38,023 nucleotides of DNA, from the NCBI GenBank assembly GCA_903926605.1, contig CAIYJV010000051.1:1-38023 (forward strand), given 5' to 3'. The notes below the pieces were generated by a model, which saw only the letters and a program-made list of their open reading frames with translations, was not told where the DNA came from and did not search any database. The position numbers and the translations under genes are program-made. Shown piece after piece: positions 9,596 through 31,666 of the stretch (positions are counted from its first letter, which is position 1; each line of letters starts with the position of its first letter). This DNA comes from an uncultured Bacteroidota bacterium. GTDB lineage: Bacteria; Bacteroidota; Bacteroidia; Chitinophagales; Chitinophagaceae.

Positions 9596-9769
9596 GAGGT
9601 GTTGGTTTTACAAGCTAAATTTAGGTAAAATGGCAACTGAAAAATCGGTGGAGCGATTAAATTCCCGGTATGAAGCTGCGCTTATATGCATTCGGTGTTT
9701 CAGATGTCCCCATTTGCACTCTTTCACCGATCGGGCCAGACGTTAATTATTTAGTATTTGACGTTACAT

Positions 9770-9777
9770 TACCTTTG
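9770..9777 (+). promoter_or_regulatory. -7 box upstream of the GT-C-like gene at 9794
   Basis: TACCTTTG matches TAnnTTTG exactly and ends 16 bases before the ATG at 9794. No TTG lies at the expected -33 distance. Confidence 0.45.
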
Positions 9778-9793
9778 TTTTCGCACCAAGGCC

Positions 9794-11503
9794 ATGAGTC
9801 AAAAAAATTTCAACAGTTTATTCATCAGACTTCACCACCTGACCAATGCAGGCTGGAAGCGTTTTCTGGTGCTGTGGGTAGTAGTCTTTGCACTTTACCT
9901 TCCGGCTGCACGTGCAGGATTCGTGGCCGACTTTAGCGGCTGGCTCGACGAGGTGAAGAACCACAGTTTCACCGATAACCTGAACAGGGTTGGTTTTCAG
10001 GGTCAGAGCCTCTACCAGCTGACCCAATTCAACACCTGGTTTTTTTACAAGATTTTTGGTATCCACGAGTGGCCCTGGCATTTGTTGTTCATCACGCTGC
10101 ACGTGGTAAACTGTGTGTTGATACTGGATGTTATAAAGCGGATCTTCAATGCTGTTTTGCTGCCAGACGGCGAGCAGATTGCGTTTGCCGGCGTATTGCT
10201 TTACAGTATCTCGCCCTATCTCTCTGAAACGCTGGTATGGGAACCTTCCTTCCATTTTTTACAGGGATTCTTCCTGATCCTGCTTGTGTTGCGCCTTACG
10301 TTCCAGTATTTTGAGTCGGGGAATATGCGATACGCGTACACTGCATGGATAGTGTATTTCTTATCTACCTTTTCGCTGGAGATCTTTTATATCACACCCT
10401 GGCTGGTGGCTACACAGGCGCTCTTTCTGCTGCTGGCCGGCGGCGAAAAGAACAAACCCTTGCAAATACTGAAAGTTCTGGTTGTGCCCATGCTGCTACT
10501 TTTCGGTTTACACTTGCTCCTGTTCAAACTGGTGTATGGAGGTTGGGTGGCGCACATAGGTACCGGCACCGTGACGGGAATGAAATTTACCGCATGGGGC
10601 AAGCCCCTGAAATATTTGTTCCACCTGCTTTTTCTGGGCAGATTTTTCAGCGCCAGTGTGCGGGATCAAGTGTATGATTTTTGCAGTACACCGGCCGCTA
10701 TTGGTGTGTTCGCTGCCGTAGCTGCAGTACTGACCGGCCTATGGATCGTGAAGTTCAGGAAGCTGAGCGCCACTGCTAAAGTGGCGGGTTTGGTGGGCAT
10801 TTGGTTAATGATAAGTCTGGCTGTGTTGGTGCCACTATGGTTTCAGGAGTTGCAACTCGTTATCTACGACCGGTATGTGTACTTCGCTGCCGCCTGGTTT
10901 TATTTGCTGGTGGCACTATTGGTGGGCAGGATCCGGGTGATGCAACTGGGCGCAGTTATTCTGGTGTGTTTCGCGCTTGTAAATCTGAGGTTCACAATTT
11001 TGGTGAACCGTTATTGGGGTAAATCAGCCAGGGTGATCAGTGGTTTGTTTCACAGATTTCCGGCCTGTCCGGGTAAGACCATTTTGTTGCTCAACATACC
11101 CCAGAACATGAACGGCGTAGCCATGATAGGTGCCGAACAAAGCAGCGAATTCAAATTGTTGCACGATCTGATTCTTCCGGAAAGTATGATAAAGGAGTCT
11201 GTGTTCGATTGCATGGCTTATAATATGCAAACACCCGGCGACGGTGCGCACGTTCGGGTCTTAAACGACAGCACCCTCACCGTAACACTGAATCAATGGG
11301 GTGGCTGGTGGTGGTTTGCTGGCAGAGGTGGCGGAGACTATGCGAATAGTGAATACCGTATCAAAGTGAACAGCACCGGTGCCACAGGTCTTTCTTATGA
11401 TCTGGTTTTGAAAAATCCTGTCAACCATTATGCATTGCTTTACAGCGTGGGTAACCAGTGGAAGGTGGTGGATATGAATTACCGTTCGCAGGATCAATAC
11501 TGA
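9794..11503 (+). CDS. Polytopic membrane protein, divergent GT-C glycosyltransferase-like
   Basis: A 569-residue protein. The ATG at 9794, after the -7 box, is chosen over an upstream in-frame start at 9758. About 9-10 hydrophobic segments cover residues 25-400; the last ~165 residues are soluble, probably periplasmic, and Trp/Gly-rich near NQWGGWWWF. The N-terminal half follows the GT-C/TMTC layout of the two proteins at 15851-19357: an acidic first loop (WLDE, residues 50-53), HLLFITLH (96-103), and SPYLSETLVW where those proteins have HPxLTxAVAW. The GRND motif is missing. A role in transferring sugars from polyprenyl phosphate is inferred; it could be inactive or use a different substrate. 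Confidence 0.7.
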   Translation: MSQKNFNSLFIRLHHLTNAGWKRFLVLWVVVFALYLPAARAGFVADFSGWLDEVKNHSFTDNLNRVGFQGQSLYQLTQFNTWFFYKIFGIHEWPWHLLFITLHVVNCVLILDVIKRIFNAVLLPDGEQIAFAGVLLYSISPYLSETLVWEPSFHFLQGFFLILLVLRLTFQYFESGNMRYAYTAWIVYFLSTFSLEIFYITPWLVATQALFLLLAGGEKNKPLQILKVLVVPMLLLFGLHLLLFKLVYGGWVAHIGTGTVTGMKFTAWGKPLKYLFHLLFLGRFFSASVRDQVYDFCSTPAAIGVFAAVAAVLTGLWIVKFRKLSATAKVAGLVGIWLMISLAVLVPLWFQELQLVIYDRYVYFAAAWFYLLVALLVGRIRVMQLGAVILVCFALVNLRFTILVNRYWGKSARVISGLFHRFPACPGKTILLLNIPQNMNGVAMIGAEQSSEFKLLHDLILPESMIKESVFDCMAYNMQTPGDGAHVRVLNDSTLTVTLNQWGGWWWFAGRGGGDYANSEYRIKVNSTGATGLSYDLVLKNPVNHYALLYSVGNQWKVVDMNYRSQDQY

Positions 11504-15850: not shown

Positions 15851-17587
15851 TTAAATATGGTATTGCTGCAGAATGTTTTCGGGCACCGGAAGACCCAGTT
15901 CTTTCATGTGCCGTGCCTGATACACGATCTTGTTGATCTGATTGGTGGTCAGGTATAACACCAACAGGTTGTTGTTTGCTTCGCTACCTTCCTTGCTGGT
16001 TTCGGGTTCTGTTTTCAGGAATTCCTGCAGGTACGCAATGGCACCATTGTTGTCGCCACGTTCAACTGACACTCTAGCCAGATAAAAATTGCATTTGTAG
16101 AAGCCGGAAATACCTTTTTCCGTCAACAAATAGGGCTCTGATATCAGAATCGAGTCCCTTTTATTAGTATTGATCAGCATCTCGGCATAAAAAAAGTTGG
16201 CATATTTTTCCTTAGGGTTGAGCTGAAAGGCTTTGCGGATCAATGCGCATTTTTTATCAAGATTGTCTTCGTATTCCGACAGGTGCAGATTGGCGAATGC
16301 CGAGCTGGGAGAGGTCTCCACAGCCTGTGACCAAAATTCATTGGGGTCGGAGAAATTCTGTTCATGAGAAAAAGTTTTGCCCGCTGTGATGCAGATAATT
16401 ACGATAGAATATATAAGCACCTGACCTTCGGTATACTTGCCATTAAACAAAATAGTTTCAGGAACCAATAACAATACGCCGATAATGGGCAGGTATAGCC
16501 TGTGTTCAAAAGTCTGATCGTTGAGACCGGCCGGTACGATCAGAGCCGGGATAAGAAACAGGACAAAGAAGATAACGCCGCCGGTGATTTTCATTTTGTC
16601 TTTGGCGGGTGAAAAGTAAATGGCAGCGATTGTAATGATTATAGCGATGATGCCATAGTAGTAAACAGTTTCCTGTTGTGTCGGGAACACACTGAGGTCA
16701 AAAGGCAATATGATCTTGCCAAAATATTGTATCAACAATGGCAGGCGGTGCAACAGTTCAGACAGAAATCCATTTTCATAGGTAACATTCTGGGTAGTGG
16801 CCATTTTTCTGGCTACAAACCATATTACCAGACACGCCGCCCAAAGAGCGTACTGCAGAAGCAACTTTTTGTTGGCAATTTTGTAACCGGCAAAAAACAT
16901 GTACAATACCATAATGGCGGCAGGCGCGAAAACCGCCGTCTCCTTGGTAAACAGCGCCAGGAGCAGAAAAAGCACTGACCAGCCCAGATTTTTACGCGTT
17001 CCGTCTGAGGTGAAGCGCATAGAATGATTCATAAAGGCGAGTACAAATATGGCTAGTAACGTGTCGTTGCGTCCCGGAATCCAAGCCACGGCTTGTGTGA
17101 GCACCGGGTGGATCGCGAAAAAGGCCGCGAGAATAAAAGCCTTGAGCGTTTTTATCTCCAGTTTCAGGAACAGCTTGAACAACAACACAACAGCAATACT
17201 GTGCAATGCAATGTTCACCAAATGGTAGAGAAAAATGTTTTGTCCGTGTCCGCTCAGCCAATAGTTAATGATCATGGAATCCATGAATACCGGGCGGTAG
17301 TACGGGTCTTTCAGCGCATCAAACAGTCCGCGGTTAAAGGAAAGAAACAGGTTTTTAAATTGTTCATTGTAGACATGAAAGTCGCGGATGAATATCGAGT
17401 CGTCCAGTTCTGTCAATCCAAACTTGAGGCTGGGTGCGTACGCGATGAAAGAAATTAAAACAAGCCATGCTAAAGGATAACCGATGAGATTGGGTTCAGG
17501 TTTTATTTTTTCTGACAAATTGATAGAATTTGCCGCCTTTGTGAGCACACGGCTGCCCTGGGTTTTTATGTTGGACTTTTTAGCCAC
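15851..17587 (-). CDS. TMTC-like membrane glycosyltransferase (GT-C) with C-terminal TPR-like repeats
   Basis: The chosen start is the GTG at 17585-17587, giving 578 residues. The longer open frame begins at a TTG (17647) upstream of the promoter, so it cannot be used by that transcript. About 10 membrane segments span residues ~38-415; the last ~150 residues are TPR-like helices (ETSPSSAFANLHLSEY, FQLNPKEKYANFFYAE). GT-C/TMTC hallmarks are the first-loop LDD (61-63), YYRP (96-99), HLVN (122-125) and HPVLTQAVAWIPGRND (160-175). In eukaryotes TMTC proteins are O-mannosyltransferases of cadherins. Donor and acceptor here are unknown; a polyprenyl-phosphate sugar is likely. It is the downstream copy of a tandem pair. 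Confidence 0.78.
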   Translation of the reverse strand: MAKKSNIKTQGSRVLTKAANSINLSEKIKPEPNLIGYPLAWLVLISFIAYAPSLKFGLTELDDSIFIRDFHVYNEQFKNLFLSFNRGLFDALKDPYYRPVFMDSMIINYWLSGHGQNIFLYHLVNIALHSIAVVLLFKLFLKLEIKTLKAFILAAFFAIHPVLTQAVAWIPGRNDTLLAIFVLAFMNHSMRFTSDGTRKNLGWSVLFLLLALFTKETAVFAPAAIMVLYMFFAGYKIANKKLLLQYALWAACLVIWFVARKMATTQNVTYENGFLSELLHRLPLLIQYFGKIILPFDLSVFPTQQETVYYYGIIAIIITIAAIYFSPAKDKMKITGGVIFFVLFLIPALIVPAGLNDQTFEHRLYLPIIGVLLLVPETILFNGKYTEGQVLIYSIVIICITAGKTFSHEQNFSDPNEFWSQAVETSPSSAFANLHLSEYEDNLDKKCALIRKAFQLNPKEKYANFFYAEMLINTNKRDSILISEPYLLTEKGISGFYKCNFYLARVSVERGDNNGAIAYLQEFLKTEPETSKEGSEANNNLLVLYLTTNQINKIVYQARHMKELGLPVPENILQQYHI

Positions 17588-17611
17588 GAATAGAATAGTT
17601 ATTATTAATGG

Positions 17612-17642
17612 CAAATTTAATACTGAATCCTGTAAATGACAA
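17612..17642 (-). promoter_or_regulatory. Promoter of the downstream TMTC-like gene
   Basis: On the minus strand TTG (17642-17640) is followed after exactly 20 bases by TAAATTTG (17619-17612). This is one of the best promoter matches in the window, with transcription expected from about 17605. It makes the GTG at 17587 the likely start codon. Confidence 0.7.
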
Positions 17643-17734
17643 CCCAAATTGATACATTAACTTATCATTTTAGATAAATTCTGATTTTAATTTTATATTT
17701 TAAAAAAAAGTTTATAAAAAATAAATTAGATATA

Positions 17735-19357
17735 CTATAGGCCGATTTCAGCCCGGATTGGTTGCCAGAGCGGGTTGTTGCGTCGGTGTATATTATTTAG
17801 TTCCACTTTCAACAAACCACTGCCGGGTGGAGTTGAATTGGCTGGGTTTTTAGAAATAAATAATCTCATTTCAGCTAAAAACACAGCGTCTTCATGATTT
17901 ATGGCCGCGACCTTCATAAGGTAATAGTGGCATATGTAGTTATCGTTAAGCGCCAATTCCCGGTTCAAAAAGACCTTGGCCTTGCTCACCGAATCCTGAT
18001 TGAGCCAAAAGACACCATACCGTAAGTTTAGTGACTTTAAGTTTGGATTTATGGAGTAGGCTTTTTCAAATTCATTTGACGCGATATTTGTTTGAGGGGT
18101 ATTTTCCGCCAGCATCAGGTGGCAAAATGCGTCTGCCGGGTTTTGCCGGGCCGCTTCCGACCAAAACATACGGGGTGAAGCGCACGCAGGCTGCCGTTGG
18201 TAATTAAGCATAGAAAAGACCAACACCACAATGAGCAGGAATATCGGGTAGCGCGATACCAGGGGCGTTTTATTTATAACCAATAACAACCCAAGCATGG
18301 GCAAATACATTCGGTGTTCCAGCACGACCTGATTGACCCGGGCATGTGGAATGAAGAGGTAGGGCAAAAGCAATACGCCAAAAAGAACGACACCTAAAAT
18401 TGCCATTTTGTACCCGTTTTTGCCGCTCCAAAAAACCAATGCCACCATAGCCGGAATCGCCAACAGCCCAGGCCAGGCGGCAACCATTTTCTGTGCAGGA
18501 TACACACCGAGCGCAACGGGCAGGAGGGCTTTTCCAAGATATTGGGTTATGATCGGAAACCGGGTATAACAGTCCGCAAGCATGGCGGAAGCATGCGGCC
18601 AGTGGGCGCGGCTATTCGCATACGTCATAGCAAAACCCCAACCAGCAATAGCAGTCACGGACACCAGCAAATGTCGGGAGAGGCAGGACGATACCCAATG
18701 TTTGCCGGACTGGTACCGCACCAACAGCAGGGACGCGGGAAGCAATACAATGGCTGTTTCTTTTGTAAAAAGTGCCAGGAGTAGCCAAACCATTGCGGTA
18801 CAGAGCAGTGCCGATTTTCCGGATGAGTAGTAAGCAATTGCATTTAAGAAATACGCCATAGCAAACACAAACAATAACGTATCGTTTCGTCCCGGTATCC
18901 AGGCTACCGCAGTTGTGAGCAAGGGATGTACGGCAAAAATGGCGGATAAAAGAAGTGCCGAAAGACGAGCGGCTCCGGTTTTGCATAGCAATTTGTACAA
19001 CAGCAGCACACAAACTGTATGCAGCAATATATTCACCACGTGGAAGCCCGCGACAGAATCGCCACAACACATTTTGTTTATGATTATAGAAATAGCAAAA
19101 ACAGGTCTGTAGAACGGAACACCCGAATTCGGAAAAATTACATTGGTAAAGGCTGATCCTAGTTCGTTCCATCCGGATGCGATCGAAGACGGTCCGTAAA
19201 TAAAATTGTAATCGTCCAGGTTGGTAAGGCCAAAACGCAAAGTGGGGGCGTACTGAGCCAGCGAAATCAGGCAAAGGAAAAGCAGTGGGTGCCGAATGAA
19301 TGCGGCGAACAGGCTATTGCTGTTTGGGTCATTCGATATGTATTTTGAATATTTCAA
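17735..19357 (-). CDS. TMTC-like membrane glycosyltransferase (GT-C) with C-terminal TPR-like repeats, paralogue
   Basis: A 540-residue protein that must start at a TTG (19355-19357) or another rare codon, as no ATG occurs in the first ~95 codons. A -7 box lies 19 bases upstream. About 10 membrane segments cover residues ~22-385, then ~120 residues of TPR-like helices. It has the same hallmarks as its neighbour: LDD (47-49), FYRP (82-85), FHVVN (105-109) and HPLLTTAVAWIPGRND (144-159). The two proteins are clearly paralogous but well diverged, so the duplication is old. A role in sugar transfer to secreted proteins or envelope glycans is inferred. The 147-base AT-rich spacer contains the next gene's own promoter. 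Confidence 0.75.
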   Translation of the reverse strand: MKYSKYISNDPNSNSLFAAFIRHPLLFLCLISLAQYAPTLRFGLTNLDDYNFIYGPSSIASGWNELGSAFTNVIFPNSGVPFYRPVFAISIIINKMCCGDSVAGFHVVNILLHTVCVLLLYKLLCKTGAARLSALLLSAIFAVHPLLTTAVAWIPGRNDTLLFVFAMAYFLNAIAYYSSGKSALLCTAMVWLLLALFTKETAIVLLPASLLLVRYQSGKHWVSSCLSRHLLVSVTAIAGWGFAMTYANSRAHWPHASAMLADCYTRFPIITQYLGKALLPVALGVYPAQKMVAAWPGLLAIPAMVALVFWSGKNGYKMAILGVVLFGVLLLPYLFIPHARVNQVVLEHRMYLPMLGLLLVINKTPLVSRYPIFLLIVVLVFSMLNYQRQPACASPRMFWSEAARQNPADAFCHLMLAENTPQTNIASNEFEKAYSINPNLKSLNLRYGVFWLNQDSVSKAKVFLNRELALNDNYICHYYLMKVAAINHEDAVFLAEMRLFISKNPANSTPPGSGLLKVELNNIHRRNNPLWQPIRAEIGL

Positions 19358-23475: not shown

Positions 23476-26400
23476 CTATCTTCCTGATAACATAAAGCGG
23501 TGGCGATAAGTAACACCGCCAAAATCATATACCAGCATATAGACGCCCGGAGCACAATCCGGAATGTCAAGGGTAATGAGGCCCGTGCTTGCGGAAACCA
23601 AAGAAATGTCTATCCGCTTACCCAGCATATCCAGCGCATATACCGAACCAAGATCCGACAGAATGTTGGTGCGCAGATAAAGCCGTCCGGTGGTAGGGTT
23701 GGGGAATAAAGACCCATCAAGGGTATTCGGTACTAACTCAGCCACTCCATTTACCGAATCGCAGTAAGCCTTGGAATAAACAATGATCTGCACACTGTCT
23801 TTGCCCGTACCGCAGATGCTTTCTATGGCATAAAATACGAGGCCCGTACCAGCAGTATCGCCGGTAACTACCAGGCCAGCGGTTGTGCCAAAAATACTGG
23901 TTACATTGTTGCCATTACTCCAGGTGCCCCCGGTCGGAAATCCGTTCAGTGTATCTTTTTTACCCACACACACACTGGTGCCGCCGGTAATGGTAGGGTA
24001 AACCACCTGACCTACTGTGAGAATGGCCGTGTCGCGAAAAACACCGCAATGGCCCGACATTAAATAAATGATGGTGTCTGCGCCGGGTGTGACCCCGGAA
24101 ATGACCAGTCCCACCGAACTTGGAGTCAATAGTGCATTGCTATTGGTGGCGTACCAGGATCCTGTTGGGGGATAAGCCAGCAGCGTGTCGTTCGGGCCGC
24201 CCACGCAAGCAAATGTGCCCCCGGCGATAAGCGGATGAACGGGTGCAACCACTACTACATTTTTTGCAGTATAACTGGAGCCACAAGCATTGGTTACCTG
24301 ATACAAAATACTGTCCGACCCGGCAACGATGCCGGTTACAAGCCCGCCGGTGACTGTAGCTACAAAGGGTAGCTGAGACGACCAGGAACCGCCGCCCACG
24401 GTAGACGTGAGTTGCACACTATCGCCCACGCATAAAGTATCAGGACCGGATAGCGAGCCGGGGTCGGGAAGGGGATCTATTGTGATCACCCTGAATGTAG
24501 TTGCTGTACCACAAATATCTGTATGGGCATAGAATATGGAGTCGGTGCCTGCATTCAGACTGTTTACGATACCCCCGCTGACAGACGCATTGGTGTTGGC
24601 AGCATACCAGTAGCCGGGATAGGATGAATTAGTAAGTGTCACGGAAGCGAAAACACACATGGACGCTGGTCCGGAAATAGTATCTACAATGGGTTGGGGT
24701 TTTACATAAAATGCCTTGGTGGCAAAATCTGAACCACAGGAGTTTGAGACTGTATAAGTAGCTGTATCGAAGCCGGGTGATACGCCATACATTACTGCGC
24801 CGGCATGAGTGGCATTGCCATTGCTCAGGCTCCAGAAACCGCCGGGGTTTGACGGGTACAATTCCATACTGCCGGCTACGCAGAGGGTATCCGGGCCGAA
24901 CACCATTCCGCCAACCGGAACAGGGATCACGGTTATGGACTTGGTTGCTGTAACGGTAGCACAGCCATTGGTCACGGTATATACCAGCGTGTCTGTACCG
25001 CCGGAGAGCCCGATCACAAGGCTGTCTTCGAGGTAACAGCTAAAAGCGTCGGTGACGCTCCAAATTCCGTTGGTTGCACTTACGGAATAAATAGCAGAAG
25101 CCCCCTGACAAAAAGAATCAATGCCCGAAATGATACCTGCGGATGGTATTACATCTATATGTATAACCTGAATTGCAGCGACGCTGCCACAGCTGTTGGT
25201 GATGGTGTACCTAATGGTATCCGTACCTGTTGACGTGCCAGAACTCACGACCATGCCGCCAGTTACATGTGCCAGACTGTTTGATGCACTCCAGATGCCT
25301 CCCGATGTGGTATCGGTAAGCAGGGTCGAGTCGCCCAGACACAGGCCCGTGGCACCGGAAATAGGAGTCACAAATGGAAGCGGATTGACCGTGATGACCT
25401 TAGTAGTGGTTTGCGACCCGCAGGAATTAGTGGTCGTGTAACTTACGGTATCGGTGCCTGCGGATACGCCGGTGAAGGCTCCGGCAGAGTCGGACAGATT
25501 GCTGTTTGATACATTCCAGATACCACCAGCGGCGGTGTCTGCGAGTGTGATCACTGAGCCGACGCATACAACTGCCGGACCCGTTATAGTACCGGGATCA
25601 GAAAGCGGAAGTACCGTTATGGTTTTTATCGCCGAAACAGCCCCGCAGGTATTATATACCGTATAGCCCACGATGGCCGGTCCGGCGCTAATACCTGTGG
25701 CTACACCGTTTGTATCCACATGTAGTTTGGCCGGCGTGAGCGATCCGAAGCTGCCACCCAGGACCGAGTCGGTAAAAGTAGTGGATGCACCCACGCAAAG
25801 TGAAGATACACCCGTGATAGTGCCCGCATTGGGAGGCGCCACAACCGTGATGGCTACACTTACGATTGTAGTACAAATACCGTTGGTTTTGGAGTAGTAG
25901 ATTGAATCTGTGCCGGCAGAAACACCGGCGACAACACCAGCCGGAGAAATGGTGGCATGGCTGTTAGAAATACTCCATGTGCCGCCCGTTGCCGTTTCCG
26001 TGACGGTAATAGTTGCCCCCGTACAAACCGAACCAGGGCCAGCGATAGGAGATAATACCGGAGCACTAAAAACCGTTACCGCTTTTGTGGCTGTAGTAGT
26101 TCCGCACACATTGGAATCTATATACCGTATAGTGTCTAGCCCCGGATTGAGTGGCGTTACTATTCCGGAACCGGTTACCGATGTGTAAGTGCCCGTTGAA
26201 TACCACCTGCCAGACCCAACCGTATCCGTAAATGTTGCAGTTGAGTACATACACAACAACGACGGACCGGAAATAACTCCTACTCCGGGAAGCGTGTCTA
26301 TGGCTATAGTGGTGGTAGTGGTGTACCCGTGCAGTGTGTAACTAATGGTATCGGTGCCGGCAGACAGTCCCGACACGAAACCGAAGGAAGGATCTATGGT

Positions 26401-27906
26401 TGCTATCGTCGAGTTGCTCAGACTCCAGACGCCTTCAGACACCAGGTCTCCCATTGTTGCCACCGTGCCAACGCACAACGATAAAGGCCCGAAAATGGGG
26501 CCGGGCACTATTGCGGTGTCGTTGAATTTAGCCAGGAAAGATTGTGAGACACCGGTATTAGTGAGTCCGGTAAAACTAAAATACACCAGGGGACTAGTGA
26601 GTGTGCCGGAAAGGTAAGCTGATTGGTATGCACCGCGGCTCAGGCCACTGGCCGCGTCTGTACCACTGCCGCCACTGTGCTGTGCGAGCAATGCACTTCC
26701 GGTAGAATCGAATTTGGCCAGAAAAATATTTCCGGCACCGCTGCTGGACAGATGAAAGGGTGATATAGTCAGTGAATCGCCCGTGAAATTTCCTGCGGCG
26801 TATACAGCGTTTCCATCGCTGGTCACAAGTGCTGTGATGAGTTCTGAATCAGTGCTGCCAGCAGAGACGGCACGGTAGAAATTACCGTTCACGTCCAGCT
26901 TCGCCAGAAACATATCAAGGCCACCGTTATTGGAAAGCATAGTGCCGCCTATTGTGAGTGTGGAGCTGGCAAATCCACCGCCGACCCAGATCCTGCCCGA
27001 ATCATCTACCGCAACCGACGTAGAAAAATCATCTCCCGGCCCACCTGCGCTTTTGGCCCAGAGCAGAAGCCCTCCGTTGGTGTATGAAGTAACAAACAGA
27101 TCGCTGCCACCGGCACCAGTGAGTGTTGTGGTGCCAAATATAGCCGTACTGCCGAAGTATCCGGACAATACCAGATTTCCGGCCGGAGAAATGGCGAGTC
27201 CTGCGGCCTCCACATTATTGCCCTTACCCTGCCTTATCCAGTACACAGTTCCCCCTGTATTTATTTTTACAAGGAACAGATTGTCGCTGGTATCGGTACT
27301 GGTATTAGCAAGCGTAAAAGTGTCGAAGGCGATGGCCGGGTCACGGAAACGGCCCGCTGCATATACATTACCACTGGCATCGGTGGTAAGTGCGTTGGCC
27401 TCATTCCGGGTGGTGCCTGTTGCACCTTTCACCCAGCTGATATTTCCAGAGTGGTCGTAGCGGGCTATGAATGCGCTGCGCTGGCCGTGATTGACAATAT
27501 ACTGTGAGCCGAACCAGGCGGTATCGCTTTCGGTATAGCCCGCCACATATACAGACCCGGTATAGTCTGTGGTCACACTTAGCGCTGCATCATTACCGGT
27601 ACCACCTGCAGTCACTGCCCATATAACATTGCCAGAAGCATCATACTGTGCAAGGTAAATATCGTTTGCGCCATGGGTTGACAGGGAAACCCCGCCCAAC
27701 GCCATTGCGCCATCATTGAAATAACCGCAGACCACGACGTTCCCGGAGATGTCGGTGGCATTGGCTGTGGCATGAGCAAGTCCCGTTGCCAGAGACTGTT
27801 TGGCCCAGGGCCATCCCTGTGCAAATATGCCGGCTGGCGCACAACAGAATAACAGAGTTGCCAGGATAAAGCCGTGAAGCTTTGTTCCGTATTGACATGG
27901 AATCAT
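23476..27906 (-). CDS. Large T9SS-secreted repeat protein: seven propeller-type repeats, twelve Ig-like repeats, type A sorting domain
   Basis: A 1476-residue protein with a signal peptide (cleavage near residue 30, IFAQ). Residues ~31-465 hold about seven ~60-residue SBBP-like repeats ending SGNVYVAGYF-type, suggesting a seven-bladed propeller. Residues ~469-1389 hold twelve ~77-residue Ig-like repeats (ISGPxxLCVG...GGxWSxSN...GTDTIxYTVTNxCG). Most have two cysteines; the first lacks the second Cys. Residues ~1398-1476 match the T9SS type A sorting domain (LFPNPTTGRLYL, LDMLGKRID, GVYMLVYDFGG...RFMLSGR). The protein should cross the outer membrane by T9SS and be attached or released. Adhesin or matrix roles are plausible, not shown. 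No catalytic motif is seen. Confidence 0.9.
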   Translation of the reverse strand: MIPCQYGTKLHGFILATLLFCCAPAGIFAQGWPWAKQSLATGLAHATANATDISGNVVVCGYFNDGAMALGGVSLSTHGANDIYLAQYDASGNVIWAVTAGGTGNDAALSVTTDYTGSVYVAGYTESDTAWFGSQYIVNHGQRSAFIARYDHSGNISWVKGATGTTRNEANALTTDASGNVYAAGRFRDPAIAFDTFTLANTSTDTSDNLFLVKINTGGTVYWIRQGKGNNVEAAGLAISPAGNLVLSGYFGSTAIFGTTTLTGAGGSDLFVTSYTNGGLLLWAKSAGGPGDDFSTSVAVDDSGRIWVGGGFASSTLTIGGTMLSNNGGLDMFLAKLDVNGNFYRAVSAGSTDSELITALVTSDGNAVYAAGNFTGDSLTISPFHLSSSGAGNIFLAKFDSTGSALLAQHSGGSGTDAASGLSRGAYQSAYLSGTLTSPLVYFSFTGLTNTGVSQSFLAKFNDTAIVPGPIFGPLSLCVGTVATMGDLVSEGVWSLSNSTIATIDPSFGFVSGLSAGTDTISYTLHGYTTTTTIAIDTLPGVGVISGPSLLCMYSTATFTDTVGSGRWYSTGTYTSVTGSGIVTPLNPGLDTIRYIDSNVCGTTTATKAVTVFSAPVLSPIAGPGSVCTGATITVTETATGGTWSISNSHATISPAGVVAGVSAGTDSIYYSKTNGICTTIVSVAITVVAPPNAGTITGVSSLCVGASTTFTDSVLGGSFGSLTPAKLHVDTNGVATGISAGPAIVGYTVYNTCGAVSAIKTITVLPLSDPGTITGPAVVCVGSVITLADTAAGGIWNVSNSNLSDSAGAFTGVSAGTDTVSYTTTNSCGSQTTTKVITVNPLPFVTPISGATGLCLGDSTLLTDTTSGGIWSASNSLAHVTGGMVVSSGTSTGTDTIRYTITNSCGSVAAIQVIHIDVIPSAGIISGIDSFCQGASAIYSVSATNGIWSVTDAFSCYLEDSLVIGLSGGTDTLVYTVTNGCATVTATKSITVIPVPVGGMVFGPDTLCVAGSMELYPSNPGGFWSLSNGNATHAGAVMYGVSPGFDTATYTVSNSCGSDFATKAFYVKPQPIVDTISGPASMCVFASVTLTNSSYPGYWYAANTNASVSGGIVNSLNAGTDSIFYAHTDICGTATTFRVITIDPLPDPGSLSGPDTLCVGDSVQLTSTVGGGSWSSQLPFVATVTGGLVTGIVAGSDSILYQVTNACGSSYTAKNVVVVAPVHPLIAGGTFACVGGPNDTLLAYPPTGSWYATNSNALLTPSSVGLVISGVTPGADTIIYLMSGHCGVFRDTAILTVGQVVYPTITGGTSVCVGKKDTLNGFPTGGTWSNGNNVTSIFGTTAGLVVTGDTAGTGLVFYAIESICGTGKDSVQIIVYSKAYCDSVNGVAELVPNTLDGSLFPNPTTGRLYLRTNILSDLGSVYALDMLGKRIDISLVSASTGLITLDIPDCAPGVYMLVYDFGGVTYRHRFMLSGR
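23740..26502 (-). repeat. Twelve tandem Ig-like repeat units within the T9SS protein
   Basis: Residues ~469-1389, with units starting GPIFGPLSL, ISGPSLLC, IAGPGSVC, ITGVSSLC, ITGPAVVC, ISGATGLC, ISGIDSFC, VFGPDTLC, ISGPASMC, LSGPDTLC, IAGGTFAC and ITGGTSVC. The units are related at the protein level but diverged at the DNA level, so recent unequal crossover is unlikely. Ten of the twelve carry D-[ST]-[AILVMT] just before the conserved Tyr. Confidence 0.85.
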
Positions 27907-28717: not shown

Positions 28718-30190
28718 ATGTGGACACAGACACCATACAGAAAATATATATGGGCTTCTTTGCCCCTTTTTTTGCTTACTGCCTGGTTCAGCGTGGGCTA
28801 CAATCACCCCGACGAGCATTTTCAGATACTGGAGTATTGTAACTATAAGCTGGGCTTCTCGGCAGCGAAAGATCTGCCCTGGGAGTTTGCCACCCGGTGC
28901 CGTACGTCGGTACAACCCTTTCTGGCTTTCTGTCTGTGCAAAGCAATGCTCGCGCTGGGCATATTCCGGCCATTGTGGGCCGCTTTTCTTTTAAGGCTTA
29001 TTGCTGCCTTGTTATCCTGGTGGGTAACGGTGAGGCTGATCGCGAAATTGCTTCCCGGATTTGCAACCGAAACAGGCCGGAAATTTTTTGTGGCGTGCAG
29101 TTTGTTTCTTTGGTTCGTACCCTATCTGGCAGTACGTTTTTCGGCAGAGAATCTTTCGGCTAGTTTGTTTTTGCTCGCTGTTTCTTTCATTCTGGATTTT
29201 GAGTCGCCGGATGGCCGCAAAAAAATATGGATGCCCCTTTTGGTGGGATGCCTGCTTGGTTTTGTGTTTTTCGTTCGAGTGCAAATGGCCTTTGCCATGA
29301 TCGGACTTGGTATCTGGATGTTGTTCATAAAAAGATTCAAATTGTCGGTCTGGCTGCTGATGATAGCGGGTGCGGTTGTTGCCGTGATCCCCTCTGTCAT
29401 GGCCGACCACTGGATGTATGGTGAATGGCTGTTTACCCCCTATCTCTACTTCAAGACCAACCTCATCAATCATGTGGCTGAAAAATGGGGCGTTTTCCCC
29501 TGGTACTACTACATTGTAATGTATGTGCAGATGGCCATACCGCCCATCAGTATTGTGCTGCCGGTATTATTTCTGTGGGGCGTCCGGAAGCGGATTACGG
29601 ATGTATTCAGTCTTATCACCGTAGTATTTCTGTTGGGGCACTTTATGATCGGGCATAAAGAGATGCGGTTTTTGTATCCGGTTTCTTTTGCGTTCACCTA
29701 TGTGGCTGCTACAGGTCTGGATGCCTGGCTTGCCGATCATTCACTCAAACCGCTGTACAAGGGTTTTGCGAAGATTCTCGTAGGATTCAATCTGGTCATA
29801 CTTTCCGTACGCACATTTATGCCGGCGCAGGAAGCCATGCTGTATTTCAACTTTTTGTACCGCTATGCCGGAAGTCATCCCACCACCATGGTGCACCGGG
29901 GCCGTACCCCCTATGGACTCAGCGTGTTGCAGGCCAATTTTTACCGCCATCCGGATCTGCAATTGATAAGCAGCGGTACCTGTTGGGCAGACTTTGATAC
30001 TGCGCTTAACAGTGCGCCCCGCGACAGGGACTTGCTTTTCCTGAGCCGGCAGATAAAACCGGAACCGGAGATAGCCGGTTATAAGTTGAAGAAGCTATAC
30101 TGCATTTACCCCGACTGGTTGCTCCGATTCAATATAGGCGACTGGGAAGAGCGGTCGAACATCTGGACGGTATATCAGGTGATCCGGTAA
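28718..30190 (+). CDS. GT22 family (ALG9/PIG-B-like) membrane mannosyltransferase homologue
   Basis: A 490-residue polytopic protein with about 10 hydrophobic segments. It carries both GT22 signatures: HPDEHFQILEY at residues 30-40 (acidic first-loop motif) and HKEMRFLYP beginning at 313. In eukaryotes GT22 enzymes (ALG9, ALG12, PIG-B, PIG-Z) add mannose from dolichyl-phosphate-mannose to lipid-linked oligosaccharides or GPI. Bacterial members exist and are mostly uncharacterised. A polyprenyl-phosphate-sugar donor and a periplasmic-side active site are inferred. The last ~130 residues form a soluble tail. A DPM1/GtrB-like GT2 gene, a possible donor synthase, lies 0.5 kb downstream on the other strand. 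Confidence 0.85.
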   Translation: MWTQTPYRKYIWASLPLFLLTAWFSVGYNHPDEHFQILEYCNYKLGFSAAKDLPWEFATRCRTSVQPFLAFCLCKAMLALGIFRPLWAAFLLRLIAALLSWWVTVRLIAKLLPGFATETGRKFFVACSLFLWFVPYLAVRFSAENLSASLFLLAVSFILDFESPDGRKKIWMPLLVGCLLGFVFFVRVQMAFAMIGLGIWMLFIKRFKLSVWLLMIAGAVVAVIPSVMADHWMYGEWLFTPYLYFKTNLINHVAEKWGVFPWYYYIVMYVQMAIPPISIVLPVLFLWGVRKRITDVFSLITVVFLLGHFMIGHKEMRFLYPVSFAFTYVAATGLDAWLADHSLKPLYKGFAKILVGFNLVILSVRTFMPAQEAMLYFNFLYRYAGSHPTTMVHRGRTPYGLSVLQANFYRHPDLQLISSGTCWADFDTALNSAPRDRDLLFLSRQIKPEPEIAGYKLKKLYCIYPDWLLRFNIGDWEERSNIWTVYQVIR

Positions 30191-30715: not shown

Positions 30716-31666
30716 TTAAAACCCAACCTTCTCTTCTGTAAGGTACAAATTCCGGTCTGTGGCGTTACGAACCACCAGTTCGGATATAAACCCGGTAAGG
30801 AAGAACAGCGTTCCCATGACCATTGCAGTAAGCGCAATGTAAAAGGCAGGTTTATTGGTGAGGCCGACTTCATTGGCATGGAGTATCTTATCGGATACCA
30901 GCCAAAGCGTGCAGATAAATCCGGCAAAAAATGTGAACGACCCCAATGCGCCGAACAGGTGCATGGGTTTCTTGCCGAAGCGGGTGATAAACAGAATGGA
31001 TAAAAGGTCGAGAAAACCATTGATGAAGCGCTCCCAGCCAAATTTCGACACGCCGAATTTCCGTGCGCGGTGCTGCACCACTTTCTCTCCTATCTTCCGG
31101 AATCCTGCATTCTTGGCGAGCACGGGTATGAACCGGTGCATTTCTCCATATACTTCTATACTCTTCACCACACGCGACTTGTAGGCTTTGAGCCCGCAGT
31201 TCATGTCGTGCAGCTTGATTCCGCTGAGGCGGCGGTTCACGGAATTGTATAATTTCGAAGGGAGATTTTTGGTGATCGCATTGTCGTAGCGAACTTTTTT
31301 CCAGCCACTCACCAGGTCAAAACCGTCTTCGGTGATCATTTTGTACAGTCCGGGTATTTCATCGGGGCTGTCCTGCAAGTCGGCATCCATCGTGATGACG
31401 ATCTTGCCGGTTGTTACCTTAAAGCCTTCGTGCAGTGCGGGACTTTTGCCATAGTTGCGTTGGAAACGTATGCCCCGCAACGACATATACTTTGTCGAAA
31501 GTTCTTTTACTACGTCCCAGCTATTGTCGGTGCTGCCGTCGTCTACCATGATCACCTCGTAGGTGTACTGGTGTTCCTTGCATACGCGATCTATCCAGGC
31601 CATTAGTTCCGGGAGCGATTCTTCCTCGTTAAAAAGAGGAACTACGATAGAAATATCCAGCGACAT
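30716..31666 (-). CDS. GT2 glycosyltransferase, DPM1/GtrB-like (polyprenyl-phosphate sugar synthase type)
   Basis: A 316-residue protein. The GT-A domain at residues ~1-230 shows VVPLFNEEESLPEL, MVDDGSTDNS, DADLQDSPDEIP (metal-binding DxD) and GWKKVRYDN...LPSKLYN, the pattern of dolichyl/undecaprenyl-phosphate glucose or mannose synthases. Two C-terminal membrane segments (~235-260 and ~270-300) match the GtrB/ArnC layout. It likely transfers a nucleotide-activated sugar to polyprenyl phosphate on the cytoplasmic face, making donors that GT-C enzymes use. Its sugar is unknown. A TTG-N20-TATTTTAG promoter-like string lies upstream on the minus strand. Confidence 0.88.
   Translation of the reverse strand: MSLDISIVVPLFNEEESLPELMAWIDRVCKEHQYTYEVIMVDDGSTDNSWDVVKELSTKYMSLRGIRFQRNYGKSPALHEGFKVTTGKIVITMDADLQDSPDEIPGLYKMITEDGFDLVSGWKKVRYDNAITKNLPSKLYNSVNRRLSGIKLHDMNCGLKAYKSRVVKSIEVYGEMHRFIPVLAKNAGFRKIGEKVVQHRARKFGVSKFGWERFINGFLDLLSILFITRFGKKPMHLFGALGSFTFFAGFICTLWLVSDKILHANEVGLTNKPAFYIALTAMVMGTLFFLTGFISELVVRNATDRNLYLTEEKVGF

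Follow-up and report, generated by a model that had tools for sequence, protein, structure and literature searches.

The eukaryotic TMTC1-4 (CAZy GT105), O-mannosyltransferases of cadherin-type substrates, join a GT-C core of 11 TM helices, with the N-terminus inside and the C-terminus outside, to about 10 lumenal TPRs, and both this topology and seven sequence motifs (M1 to M7) have been published (PMC7801869). Many prokaryotes carry homologues that span the full length, transferase part and TPR part included (PMC7801869), so the existence of GT-C+TPR proteins in bacteria is already on record and as a general discovery is not new. The closest experimentally studied proteins of this kind are tied to protein O-mannosylation (PMC7801869). 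Two other systems share the GT-C core. The protein O-mannosyltransferases Pmt1-Pmt2 and Pmt4 have an acidic residue in the first external loop (EL1) and carry a MIR domain, and ArnT uses an undecaprenyl-phosphate-sugar to modify lipid A. To our knowledge, ArnT has no C-terminal TPR domain. In the literature searched, we found no study on the function of bacterial TMTC-like enzymes and no biochemistry for any member. A function for the bacterial branch described here would tell whether TMTC-type protein glycosylation predates animals and would provide a tractable bacterial model of the TMTC enzymes.

The window, the whole stretch of 38,023 nucleotides that was analysed, corresponds to contig C51 in the draft genome of a Bacteroidota bacterium (G000; 3.97 Mb, 97% complete). 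It contains two ORFs on the same strand, p2 followed by p1, with 87 bp between them (Table 1). The two proteins are 33% identical over 517 aligned residues (E 3e-87), which bears out the two adjacent paralogues of the original prediction. The start of p1 is probably a GTG near residue 21 (~17587) rather than the TTG at 17647, because a V-x-K start is common to the relatives at that place. The motifs quoted in the original prediction, LDD (residue 81 in p1 and 47 in p2), YRP (117 and 83), H(L/V)VN (142 and 106) and HPxLTxAVAWIPGRND (180 and 144), each occur once per protein. TKET and EHRxY, which were not listed there, are also present in both. Core residues are 91-100% conserved in 88 family members, so the motif pattern is far beyond chance. 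R193, K235, E236, E381, R383 and Y385 are invariant, and D82, D83 and D195 join them at 99-100%; p2 retains all nine.

Table 1. Features of the tandem pair (positions refer to the window, residues to each protein).
Feature	Position	Strand	Residues	Remark
p1	15851..17647	minus	ORF 598 aa	~578 aa if GTG start near 17587; GT-C + TPR membrane glycosyltransferase
p1 DD	17399..17404	minus	D82-D83	First periplasmic loop, EL1; 99% in 88 relatives; = TMTC M1
p1 YRP	17291..17299	minus	117-119	End of EL1; 93-99% conserved; partial TMTC M2
p1 HPVLTQAVAWIPGRND	17063..17110	minus	180-195	EL2; includes RxD (TMTC M3); WIPGRND in 87/88 relatives
p1 KET	16937..16945	minus	235-237	EL3; K, E 100% conserved; partial TMTC M4
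p1 EHRLY	16493..16507	minus	381-385	EL5; E, R, Y 100%, H 99%; variant of TMTC M7 ERxxY
p1 C-terminal TPR domain	15863..16345	minus	435-595	Predicted periplasmic
p2	17735..19357	minus	ORF 540 aa	GT-C + TPR; diverged tandem paralogue of p1
p2 DD	19211..19216	minus	48-49	Motif placement
p2 YRP	19103..19111	minus	83-85	Motif placement
p2 HPLLTTAVAWIPGRND	18881..18928	minus	144-159	Motif placement
p2 KET	18755..18763	minus	199-201	Motif placement
p2 EHRMY	18305..18319	minus	347-351	Motif placement
p2 C-terminal TPR domain	17747..18175	minus	395-537	

AlphaFold2 models were obtained for p1 (pLDDT 85.2, pTM 0.82) and p2 (pLDDT 86.9, pTM 0.87). Foldseek returned E-values of about 1e-3 to 1e-4 with modest TM-scores. 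Because its list mixes matches to the core with matches to the TPR part, VIA-align was used for all domain-level structural statements; given the weak Foldseek E-values, the GT-C assignment rests on the VIA-align Z-scores together with the sequence evidence. Based on VIA-align, residues 45-459 of p1 match STT3 (8agb, Z 20.5), Pmt4 (9i5l, Z 20.5), Pmt1-Pmt2 (6p25, Z 19.8) and ArnT (5f15, Z 19.6), and the core of p2 matches Pmt4 (Z 20.8), STT3 (Z 20.7) and ArnT (Z 20.4). The GT-C matches of the two models lie at Z ~19-21 across ~330 residues, including Z 19-21 for the Pmt proteins and 19.5-20.4 for ArnT (5ezm/5f15). No TMTC structure was among the structural matches listed. Where the Pmt proteins have their MIR domain, p1 and p2 have TPR helices: residues 477-586 of p1 superimpose on the designed TPR 2wqh (Z 13.6, rmsd 2.0, 103 residues), and the C-terminus of p2 on the CHIP TPR 4kbq (Z 14.5, rmsd 2.7, 122 residues). 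The model of p1 has about 10 helices past TM11, that is about 5 TPRs, and p2 is similar. In the Pfam scan these repeats stayed sub-threshold; they become clear from the structure and from relatives alone, among them orthologues with TPR matches in Pfam. The C-terminal TPR-like helices and the GT-C fold that had been predicted for both proteins are thus supported. The count of about 10 TM helices did not hold. Read with the motifs as a guide, the model helices are consistent with 11 TM, a cytoplasmic N-terminus and a periplasmic TPR domain; hydropathy on its own did not resolve all 11. On the models, DD and YRP fall in EL1, the HP...GRND stretch in EL2, KET in EL3 and EHRLY in EL5.

How close, then, is the pair to the TMTCs? 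The GT-C core, the 11-TM topology and the TPR domain on the lumenal or periplasmic side are shared, and DD, YRP, RxD and KE follow in the same order, whereas TMTC1-4 have about twice as many TPRs as p1 and p2. M1 (DD) is present. From M2 (SHKSYRP) the pair keeps YRP, with a D-x-Y type stretch in place of SHKS. M3 (RxD) is found as GRND at 99-100%. In M4, KE(T/Q)xxT, the KE is 100% conserved in the family and the final T is missing. M5, the DW of EL4, is absent in 88/88 relatives; the stretch aligned there is NLSVFP. The prolines of M6 (PxxP, TM9) are conserved in the p1 family as P367 and P372, with the spacing PxxxxP. M7 (ERxxY, EL5) is EHRxY in 86/88, so that E and Y are kept and R is shifted by one. 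The DUF1736 profile gave no match to p1 or p2 even at E 10, and neither protein appeared in the genome-wide scan with it. Of the original prediction of TMTC homologues, then, the fold, the TPR part, the topology, the motif order and the general relationship are supported; p1 and p2 lack DUF1736, DW, ERxxY and the final T. The link to the TMTCs is one of genuine yet distant homology. It is reasonable to say that p1 and p2 work like a TMTC/PMT-type GT-C, and the statement that either is a TMTC is not supported. Compared with prokaryotic TMTC-like GT-C+TPR proteins (e.g. AMJ42_05695, PMC7801869), the core-then-TPR order is the same, and the pair differs in WIPGRND, TKET, EHRLY and a shortened EL4 without the D/DW site. 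Several sister paralogues, with YRPL, HPxHTEAVANIKGRDE, SKExxxT, DYSY and ERFLF, are closer to TMTC, and the 11 other homologues of the same genome include better fits to TMTC.

Direct Pfam and NCBIfam scans of p1 and p2 gave only sub-threshold TPR and Agl23-like matches, and a single-sequence phmmer search of the PDB returned nothing useful for either. Full-length profile searches of the PDB were dominated by TPR proteins and therefore did not test the core. Pfam PMT_2 is matched by 9/14 close orthologues (best 1.8e-8) and TMTC_DUF1736 by 12/30 wider GT-C+TPR paralogues (best 3.5e-7). The orthologue profile aligned with these 30 sister paralogues collinearly over 531 columns (E 4e-59; core alone E 3e-44). 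An alignment-based genome scan recovered 298 relatives, as against 0 for a single-sequence scan with poor peptide patterns. The named orthologue loci are mostly from Chitinophagaceae, e.g. Taibaiella and Flavipsychrobacter; the cultured relatives Flavipsychrobacter stenotrophus and Taibaiella soli each have a p1 orthologue. Bacterial GT-C+TPR proteins are numerous: p1 matches 13 places in its own genome alone, itself and p2 counted, and the 11 further homologues lie on contigs C346, C27, C131, C290, C145, C287, C370, C423, C403, C234 and C97. Similarity to DUF1736 was seen at 9 places in this genome, 3 of them above the curated cut-off and none of them p1 or p2. Since only 3/198 sampled Bacteroidota genomes, this one included, have DUF1736 at E<=1e-4, the genome is unusually rich. 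Judged by their sequences, p1 and p2 are a distinct Bacteroidota branch (WIPGRND/TKET/EHRLY), patchy across the phylum and present in 10/198 genomes at E<=1e-30. A general Bacteroidota O-OTase was reported as unidentified in 2018 (PMC6120980); the idea that p1 and p2 are this missing enzyme was rejected on account of the same patchy distribution.

We consider it likely that p1 and p2 are active, polyprenyl-phosphate-sugar-dependent periplasmic glycosyltransferases whose TPR domain recruits the acceptor. What the analysis shows is homology, a predicted fold, a topology in keeping with the motifs, conserved residues and the history of the duplication; the activity, the donor, the acceptor and the part played by the TPRs are inferred. 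As GT-C enzymes of the inner membrane, they would most likely take one sugar from the polyprenyl-phosphate-sugar at the periplasmic face and pass it to the acceptor. The DD of EL1 would position or activate the acceptor, whereas the K/E of EL3 and the EHRxY of EL5 would hold the donor phosphate. The EL4 metal-site DW/D of the TMTCs and several sister paralogues is absent from p1 and p2, so the site for the metal or the phosphate has to be built differently. The periplasmic TPR domain would most likely recruit the acceptor, with a secreted or envelope protein the most plausible one. The sugar may be mannose and the two copies may serve different acceptors, as the original prediction had proposed for the latter. 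Points against this explanation are the missing EL4 site, gene neighbours that indicate neither a donor nor an acceptor, and the possibility that the TPR domain binds another enzyme instead of the acceptor. A narrower version is tentative and, taken as a whole, rather unlikely: p1 and p2 would represent an uncharacterised branch of bacterial protein O-glycosyltransferases, a sister branch of the TMTC-like enzymes in which the donor-phosphate/metal site is rearranged (EHRxY, and no Asp in EL4), the tandem copies serving different envelope proteins.

It is possible, if somewhat doubtful, that the pair are active GT-C transferases with a glycan or lipid acceptor (LPS, exopolysaccharide or a lipid-linked oligosaccharide), like ArnT, Agl23-type enzymes and arabinosyltransferases, and that the TPR domain tethers them to an envelope assembly machine. 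With Z 19.6-20.4, ArnT is as good a match as Pmt4, the weak NCBIfam matches are to a surface glycopolymer family and to Agl23, and the GT2 protein of the window is closest to ArnC. However, among the neighbours in 80 loci, gene clusters for LPS or polysaccharide did not turn up repeatedly, and the nearest studied GT-C+TPR proteins are linked to protein O-mannosylation (PMC7801869). A protein acceptor for p1 and p2 is plausible.

The history of the pair was traced with a maximum-likelihood tree (quick method, SH-aLRT support). In this tree p2 falls outside the clade of p1 and joins the second copies from the other three species of the genus (support 93, rising to 98 for the nearest of them), and the tandem pair is present in all four species (4/4 genomes). 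The pairing of p2 with L114 is unsure because long branches meet there, and is supported by the tandem position kept in all four genomes. The end branch is 2.55 for p2 and 0.96 for p1, so that p2 has evolved about 2.5 times faster. We conclude that p2 arose by an old tandem duplication, that it has been kept, and that the two copies evolve at unequal rates. Could p2 serve p1 as a non-catalytic or regulatory partner? Its long branch and its loss of positions conserved at 91-95% (R106, G107 and D114 in EL1, W269 and R280) speak for such a role, which we nevertheless regard as unlikely, with every core catalytic residue intact and the second copy kept in all four species. Because conserved loop positions are lost while the core is untouched, the pattern of substitutions fits an enzyme with an altered acceptor or partner rather than a decayed copy. 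The old, retained and rate-asymmetric duplication would likewise be compatible with acceptor divergence. Least likely of all is that the pair are true bacterial TMTC orthologues, protein O-mannosyltransferases with a polyprenyl-phosphate-mannose donor, as the shared architecture, topology and ordered DD, YRP, RxD and KE stand against the missing DUF1736 match, DW, SHKS and final T of M4, the EHRxY for ERxxY, only ~5 TPRs, and a better fit of other paralogues in the same genome.

No partner gene recurs beside p1 among the neighbours in 80 loci. The neighbours vary (ParA/ParB, metallo-hydrolase, YflT, Nramp, MgtE_N, DMP19), and the neighbourhood was rejected as a functional clue, the recurrent ones being unrelated housekeeping genes. 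Elsewhere in the window, the GT2 protein at 30716-31666 (minus strand) is most like ArnC (E 3e-44) and also resembles GtrB and DPM synthase; it is a candidate polyprenyl-phosphate-sugar synthase, that is, a putative donor maker. An Alg9-like GT22 (GT-C) protein lies at 28718-30190 (plus strand); Pfam assigns it at E 1e-32, and its sequence matched nothing in the PDB. Both are ~9-16 kb from p1 and p2, and nothing ties either to the pair. At 23476-27906 (minus strand) there is a 1476-aa protein that ends in a T9SS type A sorting domain and may be a large surface protein exported by the cell. The 581-aa ORF at 9758-11503 (plus strand) matched neither Pfam nor NCBIfam. Tandem copies of the family, apparently from independent duplications, are also found at L066:7902-11338 and L120:7890-11319. 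The second L066 copy has WICARVE for WIPGRND and EYRLY for EHRLY.
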